This document shows positions 34,265-35,791 of a stretch of 35,791 nt of DNA, in pieces. The DNA lies in NCBI GenBank assembly GCA_017561145.1, contig JAFZDO010000016.1, positions 1 to 35,791 of the forward strand, in the 5' to 3' direction. How positions within the stretch are numbered: the stretch's first letter is position 1; every line of letters starts with the position of its first letter. The notes beneath the pieces were generated by a model. It worked only from the letters and a program-made list of their open reading frames with translations. It had not been told where the DNA came from and made no database searches. Position numbers and translations under genes: made by a program. This DNA is from Clostridia bacterium (GTDB taxonomy: Bacteria; Bacillota; Clostridia; Oscillospirales; CAG-382).

Positions 34265-35395
34265 ATGAAAAAAGTCACAAAGCGATTCCTGAAAATGCTC
34301 CTCGCGGCTTGTATGCTTTTCACCGCAATTCCTCTCGGAGTCGGCGCAGCTGCCGATACCGAATGGTTTACCGAAAAAGACGTTCAGGGCATCAAGTCTA
34401 CTATTATTTCCAACAAGTACCATGCATTGTACGTTGACGTTATGATGCGTTATCACCTTCTTTCCGAAACCAATAACCACCGCGTTGAGCGTAACCTTAA
34501 CGACGGCAAGAGCATTGTCTTCTTCTTCGACGGCTGCAGCGATAACGTCGATGACAGTAAGTACAGCGATATCAACAAATACCGCCTTTCGTCCTACTGT
34601 GCTGTAATTCAGCTCAAGGACGGCGTTCCCACCATCGTTTACGAATCCGAATTTAATTCCACCATCCCCGATAACCCCCGTAACCCCGAAACAAACGAGG
34701 GGGACCCCGTACCTACCGTTCTCGACGGTATCTATAACATCCAGTCCACTAACCACGGCGGAAGCTATGCCGCACTCTGGATCGAGGACGACGGCACTCA
34801 GGTTCCCGTAATGCGTTGCACCGAAACCACCAATTACGTAAGCACCTCCAAATATATAAACATCCACGCACGTTATCCCTGGACAGGAGCTCCCCTCGAC
34901 GGCATCACCTCCGATTCCTACAGCTCGTCGGGCTGCTTCAACGTAGGCAAGACAAGCGACAGCTTCAGAGATTACAATAAGTTCATCGAGCTTATTCTCG
35001 GCGTAAAGAATGCACGTAAGCCCGACTGGAACAACGCAAAATGCACAAGCGGCGTTGACCACGGCCTTGTTATCGTAGACAGATCGCATTATCAGACCCA
35101 GCTTGCTCAGATCTATAAGGGCAACGTAAACAACGGCGCGGAGATCGTTGCAAAGCTCGTCGAAAATTCTCTTAAGCTCCAAAAAGAGATATTCAACGGC
35201 TTGGGCGACGTAAACGGCAACGGCGAGATCGATAAATACGACTATATCACCGTTAAGCGCGGACTTTTGGGAACACTCGACCTCACTGACGTTCAGACAA
35301 TGTCCGCCGATGTCAACAAAAACGGCGAAACCGAAAAGTTCGACTATATCCTCATCAAGCGCGACATTCTTGGCACCTACGAAATAAAAGACTGA
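34265..35395 (+). CDS. Secreted type I dockerin protein with L,D-transpeptidase-like motif
   Basis: A 376-residue exported protein. The signal peptide (basic start, then MLLAACMLFTAIPLGVGAAA) lacks an obvious lipobox. Residues 35-140 form a domain I do not recognise, followed by a Pro/Asn/Glu linker near 135-150. The domain at about 150-250 has YINIHARYP (His201) and SYSSSGCFNVG (Cys224), which resembles the His...S-x-G-C signature of YkuD-like L,D-transpeptidases or related peptidases. A complete dockerin follows at about 314-373, with calcium loops DVNGNGEIDKYD and DVNKNGETEKFD. It should therefore dock to a cohesin encoded elsewhere. ATG 34265 has GGAGG six bases upstream. The dockerin is secure; the catalytic assignment is inference. 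Confidence 0.85.
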   Translation: MKKVTKRFLKMLLAACMLFTAIPLGVGAAADTEWFTEKDVQGIKSTIISNKYHALYVDVMMRYHLLSETNNHRVERNLNDGKSIVFFFDGCSDNVDDSKYSDINKYRLSSYCAVIQLKDGVPTIVYESEFNSTIPDNPRNPETNEGDPVPTVLDGIYNIQSTNHGGSYAALWIEDDGTQVPVMRCTETTNYVSTSKYINIHARYPWTGAPLDGITSDSYSSSGCFNVGKTSDSFRDYNKFIELILGVKNARKPDWNNAKCTSGVDHGLVIVDRSHYQTQLAQIYKGNVNNGAEIVAKLVENSLKLQKEIFNGLGDVNGNGEIDKYDYITVKRGLLGTLDLTDVQTMSADVNKNGETEKFDYILIKRDILGTYEIKD

Positions 35396-35404
35396 TTATA
35401 AACG

Positions 35405-35437
35405 AAAAGGACTTGCTTAACGCAGGTCCTTTTTTTC
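35405..35437 (+). terminator. Terminator after the dockerin gene
   Basis: AAAAGGACTTGC (35405-35416), loop TTAAC, GCAGGTCCTTTT (35422-35433), then a T-tract. One G-T pair. Confidence 0.9.
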
Positions 35438-35497
35438 TTTGAAAATATTACGGCAGTTTGGGGTATGATTCGAATTTTTCATAATCGTTGGTTTTTA

Positions 35498-35676
35498 GTG
35501 AAATCGTTCGCTTACGCTCACGCTGAAATCAAAGGCTACGCCTTTGGTGAAATATTTTGCTAAAACAAAATATGAAATTAAATCCACCCACTCGCCGTCG
35601 AGGCGGATTTCACACGCCGCAGGCGTATTTCACATTGCAAAGCAATATTTCACCCACCCGCAAGGGTGGATTTAGC
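35498..35676. repeat. Array of small hairpins joined by a conserved heptamer
   Basis: Fills most of the gene-free stretch 35396-35709. Left-half linkers read GTGAAAT or one-base variants at 35498, 35523, 35547 and 35572. Right-half linkers read ATTTCAC at 35607, 35627 and 35647, with ATTTAGC at 35670. Between them are unrelated short stems: CAAAGGC/GCCTTTG (35530-35546), ATATTTTG/CAAAATAT (35552-35573), AAATCC/GGATTT with an inner stem (35580-35610), ACGCC/GGCGT (35614-35626), ATTGC/GCAAT (35634-35646) and CCACCC/GGGTGG with a GCAA loop (35654-35669). No coding frame fits. It looks like a repeat element that could fold as one large branched structure. Confidence 0.8.
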
Positions 35677-35678
35677 TG

Positions 35679-35709
35679 AAAAAGGACTTTCTTTCGAAAG
35701 TCCTTTTTC
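35679..35709 (-). terminator. Terminator after tRNA-Tyr
   Basis: A perfect 13-bp stem, AAAAAGGACTTTC (35679-35691) with GAAAGTCCTTTTT (35696-35708), starting one base beyond the CCA end of the minus-strand tRNA. It is nearly symmetric and can act both ways. Confidence 0.85.
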
Positions 35710-35791
35710 TGGTGGGGGAAGGTGGATTCGAACCACCGAAGTCAGTGACAACAGATTTACAGTCTGCCCCCTTTGGCCGCTCGGGAATTCC
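35710..35791 (-). tRNA. tRNA-Tyr (GUA), cut by the window edge
   Basis: Read on the minus strand. CCA is encoded at 35712-35710. The acceptor 3' strand is TTCCCCC and the T-arm is GGTGG-TTCGAAT-CCACC. A long class II variable arm follows, and the anticodon stem-loop CAGA-CTGTAAA-TCTG has GTA at 35760-35758. Only GGAA of the 5' acceptor strand is present, so three bases should lie beyond 35791, giving about 85 nt in total. The anticodon, with a purine 3' to it, and the long variable arm identify tyrosine. Confidence 0.95.

Follow-up and report, generated by a model that had tools for sequence, protein, structure and literature searches.

Near the end of the 35,791-nucleotide stretch of Clostridia DNA analysed here (the window) lies an array of short hairpins that probably represents a MITE-like member, without an ORF, of a family of small mobile elements located directly behind tRNA genes, the array working as DNA. 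Longer members of the family run from the tRNA CCA through a palindromic terminator hairpin (h0), an array whose linker words flip orientation at its centre, and promoter-like sequence to a gene of the 23S_rRNA_IVP family (IVP, also called S23); some copies add a small 'cargo' gene, its start overlapping the IVP stop codon. Each array half can be pictured as a series of highly stable mini-hairpins in DNA, spacing out three to four recognition words; these linker words would be bound by the IVP, and copies lacking the ORF would depend on action in trans for their movement or maintenance. Comparison between copies shows dispersal, a fixed orientation behind tRNA 3' ends with a left boundary at or near the CCA, the coexistence of copies with and without the ORF, and exchange of cargo at the IVP stop. 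We infer transposition, and a move of the window copy in trans.

The array was first noticed as a row of about seven unrelated stems separated by one conserved heptamer, GTGAAAT-like in four left copies and ATTTCAC-like in four right copies. The words stand at the 6-mer level: TGAAAT occurs on the plus strand at 35499, 35524, 35548 and 35573, and ATTTCA at 35607, 35627 and 35647, while the fourth right linker is degenerate (ATTTAGC, 35670-35676). Of the four left words, only those at 35498 and 35547 are full GTGAAAT heptamers, the others reading CTGAAAT and ATGAAAT; the right half has three full ATTTCAC words. The spacings of 25, 24 and 25 (left) and 20 and 20 (right) agree with the 20-25 bases first given. 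There are five perfect hairpins (stem at least 5) in 35498-35676, compared with a mean of 1.02 and a maximum of 4 in 200 shuffles, and one further stem with a tandem mismatch (35505-35522). None of 100 dinucleotide shuffles of the whole window contains a 6-mer flip (at least three words, then at least three inverted, within 260 bp); the looser 5-mer setting with at least 3+3 words is not rare, occurring in 56 of 100. Both strands of the array fold far better than shuffles, with z-scores of -5.0 (plus) and -4.9 (minus). The array centre, 35579-35589, is an exact 11-nt complement of 35664-35674, i.e. of an arm of the first hairpin, and this pairing is a possible closing helix of the array's first half. 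The feature is longer than the array itself: towards the tRNA it includes the terminator hairpin and reaches 35709, and in the other direction, judged by eye, its tail reaches about 35440. Its flanking terminators and the tRNA gene, a tRNA-Tyr, are as first described (Table 1).

Table 1. Features of the element and its surroundings in the window, from the tRNA gene towards the tail.
Feature	Position	Strand	Remark	Source
tRNA-Tyr (gta)	35710..35791	-	cut by contig end; encoded CCA ends at 35710	ARAGORN, Rfam
h0, palindromic terminator hairpin GAAAAAGG...CCTTTTTC	35678..35709	-	first base after tRNA CCA; taken as element start	
Array first half, Gut-1 (RF01706)	35602..35678	-	89.6 bits	Rfam
First linker, GCTAAAT on - (ATTTAGC on +)	35670..35676	-	degenerate	sequence
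Hairpin h1, CCACCC-GCAA-GGGTGG (on +)	35654..35669			hairpin scan
Linker ATTTCAC (+)	35647..35653			sequence, flip scan
Hairpin ATTGC-AAA-GCAAT	35634..35646			hairpin scan
Linker ATTTCAC (+)	35627..35633			sequence, flip scan
Hairpin ACGCC-GCA-GGCGT	35614..35626			hairpin scan
Linker ATTTCAC (+)	35607..35613			sequence, flip scan
Centre	35579..35606		35579-35589 complementary to 35664-35674	repeat search
Array second half, inverted weak Gut-1	35496..35583	+	35 bits	Rfam
Linker ATGAAAT (+)	35572..35578		first past the flip	sequence, flip scan
Hairpin ATATTTTG-CTAAAA-CAAAATAT	35552..35573			hairpin scan
Linker GTGAAAT (+)	35547..35553			sequence, flip scan
Hairpin CAAAGGC-TAC-GCCTTTG	35530..35546			hairpin scan
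Linker CTGAAAT (+)	35523..35529			sequence, flip scan
Imperfect hairpin, CGTGAGCGTAAGCGAACG on -	35505..35522		tandem mismatch; G003 copies have near-identical counterparts (by eye)	
Linker GTGAAAT (+)	35498..35504		last	sequence, flip scan
Degenerate tail TAAAAACCAACG..TTCGAATCATAC..	35440..35497	-	resembles tail of ORF-less copies (by eye)	
Terminator of convergent protein gene	35405..35433	+	stop near 35395; probably outside element	

The Rfam match to Gut-1 on the minus strand is full-length with respect to the model and well over the gathering score of 50; the inverted match on the plus strand falls below that score. The window array thus approximates two Gut-1 halves placed head to head. 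A report of 2010 introduced Gut-1 as a non-coding RNA without a cis-regulatory or switch role, known from the human gut only and in environmental sequence only (PMC2864571). It corresponds to one half of the present unit, which comprises two inverted halves, a terminator, and a tail or IVP gene, occurs in several linker variants, and often lies behind tRNAs. In contrast to the environmental-only record, the accepted named contigs are mainly Clostridia MAGs: among 21 with printed titles, 19 are Clostridia, Oscillospiraceae, Ruminococcaceae or similar, one is Akkermansia and one is labelled 'bacterium'. The first-pass annotation would have been refuted by identity with a repeat family known before; RF01706 is such a family for half of the element, which it describes as an RNA.

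Searches of the source genome and of related Clostridia, as proposed in the first-pass annotation, reveal a dispersed family and not a single copy. In the source genome, Gut-1 matches lie at the window and on contigs C42, C27 and C30, with a weak one on C20 (E 0.8). The same layout is seen there by eye with differing linkers, namely GTGAAAT (C27), GATGAAAT (C42), GTGATATT-like (C30) and GTATGTAAT / GATTCCATAC (C20). Within the genus, at least 22 of 24 genomes have matches at E<=0.01 (at least 17 over the cut-off, with up to at least 50 matches each); sub-threshold matches also came from 2 of 14 control genomes. Across the class, matches at E<=1e-6 occur in at least 52 of 391 genomes and at least 41 of 223 genera (controls 0/14). 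When named contigs were searched for stretches with three copies of GTGAAAT, at least 119 were obtained, unrelated taxa included; among the 120 viral loci listed with the pattern, four arrays in three loci passed the hairpin filter.

Outside Clostridia, an Akkermansia MAG contig (L158, 2312-3306 and 6168-7054) carries three Gut-1 matches over the cut-off and an IVP gene about 350-380 nt from a flip array with ATAACC words, through transfer or misbinning.

For a closer look at the arrays, 238 raw hits were reduced to 123 with at least three hairpins and to 117 after removal of exact duplicates, near-identical copies within one genome being counted separately. Since most were gathered by Gut-1 or GTGAAAT searches (seven come from loci fetched with a tRNA-Tyr query), linker frequencies in this set are biased to GTGAAAT. 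Of 575 spacers between linkers in these non-redundant arrays, 444 are end-to-end hairpins (stem at least 4), compared with 5.9% in shuffles and 6.3% at random places. These 444 hairpins comprise 173 distinct arms.

The hairpin loops are strongly patterned. On the strand with the ATTTCAC-like linker, 220 of 300 triloops are GNA and 125 of 159 tetraloops are GNNA, only 64 of the latter being GNRA (116 arrays, the Akkermansia array with linker ATAACC being left out of loop and closing-pair counts). A C-G pair closes 123 of 131 GNA and 84 of 92 GNNA loops of distinct spacers. The loop types are therefore cGNAg and cGNNAg, and the favoured loop swaps strand together with the linker at the flip. As DNA, c(GNA)g and c(GNNA)g loops are exceptionally stable, and a mini-hairpin DNA serves for stability in aptamer work; RNA tetraloops would prefer a purine at the third place. 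When orientation is judged by the closing arm, 40 of 101 arrays stay undecided.

These observations bear on the catalogued interpretation, in which the array is transcribed as a structured non-coding RNA. The full-length Rfam match and the strong fold z-scores speak for it, as does the grading of Gut-1 as 'certainly' RNA in Weinberg et al. 2010 (PMC2864571). Nevertheless, the loops change strand at the flip, as expected of a symmetric DNA element and not of one transcript, and the GNNA loops lack the purine bias of GNRA; both features argue for hairpins of DNA rather than RNA. G-T mismatches (22) are not clearly above A-C mismatches (16) among 2815 pairs, a comparison of little power that keeps folds with up to two mismatches and contains 122 other mismatches. 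Moreover, entire stems are swapped between copies with the linkers kept. As to position, a terminator precedes the array, and copies with an ORF have promoter-like sequence (by eye) after it. The conserved palindromes of a repeat can mimic RNA structure. An RNA role, which had been one of three readings first suggested and has been published under the name Gut-1, is accordingly improbable on the evidence of loops and position, and we infer that the array acts at the DNA level.

In gut bacteria, this dispersed repeat is often located just behind tRNA genes. A tRNA 3' end reads into the array within 120 nt in 55 of 117 cases and a tRNA reads away in one; with the seven tRNA-query arrays removed, the figures are 52 of 110 and one, involving 19 kinds of tRNA. 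Among 89 arrays with 200 nt on both sides, a tRNA reads in for 47, and about half of all arrays have no tRNA within 120 nt. Within 75 nt of these 89 arrays, a strong hairpin (score at least 10) flanks 67 on exactly one side and 8 on both sides, while 14 have none. This hairpin is h0. Typically, h0 has the form GAAAAA-stem-TTTTTC, and in the tRNA cases it begins at the CCA or a few bases beyond. Identical h0 sequences follow different tRNAs, for example tRNA-Gly and tRNA-Tyr of genome G003, so h0 travels with the unit. The left end of the element thus seems to coincide with the tRNA CCA, its own terminator hairpin coming first. At locus L045 the order is tRNA-Gly CCA, h0, array, tail and another terminator, which suggests that the element was inserted between the tRNA gene and that gene's terminator.

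At the opposite end, the tails of ORF-less relatives were compared in 22 distinct places, 12 of which share a common TAGCCCATAGACA-like end motif; in 8 of these 12 a terminator hairpin lies at most 5 nt past the motif, and three of these hairpins represent h0 of a further element. In the window copy h0 is present, but the tail is degenerate and the TAGCCCATAGACA end motif was not found in it; tail patterns matched relatives and not the window. An origin of the tail as an IVP remnant was considered, and reading frames inspected by eye gave no convincing match. No terminal inverted repeats shared among element ends were seen by eye.

The tRNA-Tyr site itself differs across the genus. By eye, GTGAAAT arrays like that of the window are present in G003 and G006, a GTGATATT array in G007, a CATATCATC array in G010, and short or degenerate CATATCATC forms in G002, G011 and G015; in G012 (L100) and G022 (L103), tandem CACTCTT-like words without hairpins directly follow the terminator. 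No array was seen by eye at this site in G004, G013 and G017, in what is a comparison between species, and the site is cut by the contig end in G008, G009 and G014. The site has thus been used repeatedly by different variants. The CACTCTT-like tandem words of G012 and G022 resemble words found before some IVP genes.

Could arrays instead have grown in place, through hairpin-driven template switching behind terminators and without dispersal? Near-perfect, freely varying palindromes speak for such a process, and tandem copies exist: L054:1-720 (contig C15 of G003) holds tail, array and h0 in three tandem copies with a period of about 242 bp, beside a tRNA. However, the same h0, array and tail stand behind different tRNAs within one genome, and units with an IVP gene have sharp ends, which makes growth in place very unlikely as the sole cause.

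Duplication of the tRNA 3' end, as produced by integrases, was also considered as the origin of the array and rejected. A direct repeat of the tRNA 3' end (at least 13 nt) lies downstream of 14 of 150 tRNAs, compared with 5 of 150 in the control, and such duplications stem mostly from a second, different repeat. This second repeat lies behind tRNAs at L018:774-956, L278:1065-1242, L289:1106-1282 and L045:1760-1905. It consists, in order, of a terminator, an inverted part of the tRNA T-arm, a conserved CAGTTCGGGGAACTG-like hairpin and, in direct orientation, a repeat of the final ~20 nt of the tRNA including CCA at its end; at L298 the copied tRNA end mismatches the upstream tRNA-Trp. An integrase was not found beside arrays among the ORF clusters of array loci.

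The protein partner emerges from clustering of ORFs at array loci with no family presupposed: one cluster is present in 18 loci and the next best in 4. The eight smallest distances between a cluster ORF and an array are 0-11 nt (stop-to-stop frames). The cluster is PF05635, 23S_rRNA_IVP (Pfam, E 3.8e-27; NCBIfam 'four helix bundle protein'), and is related to PDB entries 2rld and 2gsc. Each entry has five chains, and we take these crystallised relatives to be pentamers. IVP matches were obtained in 28 loci. An array lies no more than 130 nt away in 20 of them; in 19 of these the gene lies 17-126 nt beyond the array and reads away from it, and in L136 the two overlap. Among the remainder, six lack an accepted array; the only array of L025 and of L158 is ~350 nt off, downstream of the gene. 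Promoter-like sequence is visible by eye between array and gene in several loci. At L018:1030-1460 (C27 of the source genome), an array and ribosome-site-like sequence are followed by a non-IVP ORF of 84 aa in the place of the IVP gene.

Within the genus, PF05635 occurs in 19 of 24 genomes with 43 matches, ten of which were dropped for having less than 330 nt of upstream sequence. Of the remaining 33 genes, 26 have a flip array directly upstream at the 6-mer level, compared with 22 of 758 control windows, and 22 have a co-directional tRNA upstream, with none in the opposite direction. Seven genes fall below the flip threshold, three of which (L291, L299 and L305) show arrays by eye. At k=5 the flip score did not separate IVP loci from controls, and k=6 with explicit controls was used for this reason. 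By eye the linkers vary with the IVP gene (GCTAAAT, GTGATA, ATGAAG, GTGATG, ATGATG, TGAATT and others), and L283, L289, L292, L302 and L303 have tandem words with no hairpins between them. The window copy carries no PF05635 gene, those of the source genome being on other contigs (C34 and C43); as arrays precede most genus IVP genes, it is best called an ORF-less relative and not a full IVP member. Dispersed copies, the tRNA-anchored left boundary and these longer, ORF-bearing relatives together give good support to the non-autonomous mobile repeat first suggested, and the array is also likely to bind protein, as had been proposed; the IVP probably binds the linker words.

Copy number and linker type are modestly linked. 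Gut-1 number was compared between genomes with and without a GTGAAAT-linked IVP (5 v 19 genomes, one-sided p=0.012); with two TGAAAT-linked loci under the cut (L290 and L075) added afterwards, the same test gives p=0.005 (7 v 17). The source genome (68% complete) has two IVP genes, neither with GTGAAAT linkers; of the two IVP matches in G006 (50 Gut-1 matches), one has different words and the other is too truncated to judge; and in G020 (23 Gut-1 matches, 91% complete) no IVP was found.

A further rival is a domesticated BIME-like element at the 3' ends of tRNA operons, serving as a binding site for host gyrase or a host nucleoid protein, or marking a transcription boundary, its mobility being a thing of the past. 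Inverted pairs of palindromic units do resemble REP/BIME sequences, and the location behind tRNA genes would fit. Against this, arrays accompany IVP genes, and a single host factor is ill-suited to linker words that vary among copies of one genome; such domestication is likewise improbable.

Alignment of eight pairs of IVP units defines their ends, and units from different tRNA contexts align up to the IVP stop. In seven pairs similarity is lost no more than 16 nt from that stop codon; in L280/L295 it extends 51 nt beyond. The left limit falls on the CCA or within the tRNA, apart from L301/L297, where it comes 40 nt past the tRNA, and three pairs limited by a contig end or low similarity. The IVP stop overlaps the start of an ORF of at least 45 aa (ATGA/GTGA) in 13 of 57 rows, or 11 distinct loci, a count without control in which the rows include loci fetched twice. 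Ten such followers were scanned: two are GNAT acetyltransferases, one is MazG-like, one a Vut_1 transporter, one matches DUF553 below the cut-off, and five have no Pfam match. One module is common to L301, L293 and L046 (82-86%), with three different followers, and another to L296 and L286 (87%), with two. Conversely, L301 and L296 share a follower (161 of the first 170 bases identical) behind IVP genes that are identical at only 221 of 340 positions. Common modules with different followers, and a common follower with different IVPs, show exchange at the IVP stop. PADLOC gave no hits to known defence genes for nine proteins (eight followers and the IVP).

Beyond the class, PF05635 is present in 57 of 299 genomes of a phylum sample. 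Among the best 30 loci, all from other classes (L306-L335), an upstream tRNA was found in none and a flip array in one. In these loci, short words often repeat in tandem just before the gene and, as their inverted complement, just after it. In an alignment test, inverted words exceed the 95% level of swapped partners in 22 of 30 loci and direct words in 11 of 30, and the locus's own downstream sequence is the best partner in 19 of 30. Exact 7-mers are found inverted around 9 genes and direct around 7 (controls 51 and 69 of 1500); some of the 30 are close relatives, and only 11 gave a tblastn hit. Such bracketing words suggest that an inverted short-word array is a common trait of IVP genes, of which the hairpin form seems a local elaboration.

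Several known systems resemble parts of this arrangement. The 23S rRNA intervening sequences, e.g. of Coxiella burnetii, encode the S23 protein and have been termed selfish in one account (PMC4990558), and IVP ORFs are also mentioned in 16S and 23S insertions of CPR bacteria (PMC11270868). The family protein is the same, and both kinds of element are tied to stable-RNA genes; unlike the intervening sequences, the present elements lie behind tRNAs, have flip hairpin arrays and promoter-like sequence, and include many ORF-less copies. The window element, directly behind tRNA-Tyr, is not in the classical position inside rRNA. With MITEs the family shares dispersed ORF-less copies alongside ORF-bearing relatives, but terminal inverted repeats and target duplication were not recognised in this element. 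As in integron attC sites and gene cassettes, there are folded-DNA-like sites and unrelated small cargo genes exchanged at one junction; here, by contrast, the site is a long array on the 5' side and the junction is the IVP stop codon.

REP/BIME/REPIN-RAYT systems likewise have short, inverted palindromic units dispersed at 3' ends of transcription units, and the oriented hairpin units in inverted halves could suggest movement by a Y1 (HUH) transposase. Y1_Tnp is indeed present in the Gut-1-rich genomes G005 (33 matches) and G017 (20), but in just 5 of the 24 genus genomes, which are incomplete. It was not found in the source genome or in the high-copy genomes G003, G004 (97% complete), G006 and G008, and was rejected as the partner. 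REP stems do not vary freely; here the linker is kept, the stems are free and there is no consistent Y1 transposase. A REP/RAYT-Y1 system is thus largely refuted for the genus, and as an explanation of the window it is extremely unlikely.

The preferred reading, a small mobile DNA element with an IVP partner, can be extended to a cassette system without a known recombinase, in which hairpin arrays with their own linker code, a cognate oligomeric IVP, a module at the tRNA 3' end and cargo swapped at ATGA would act together. This extension is speculative and, for the present, rather doubtful; if true, a widespread class of mobile elements would use IVP/S23 proteins as the factors that bind their arrays. 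In the literature available so far, IVP/S23 proteins are listed with no function assigned (PMC11270868), and the open-licence literature gave no link of Gut-1 to IVP, nor of IVP to hairpin arrays or tRNA. Two orphans would be joined: a catalogued gut RNA family would correspond to about half of a DNA element, and IVP/S23 would gain a consistent partner. That partner would be inverted arrays of short words, of the hairpin type here and of short tandem words in other classes of the phylum, and through it the function of IVP becomes directly testable.
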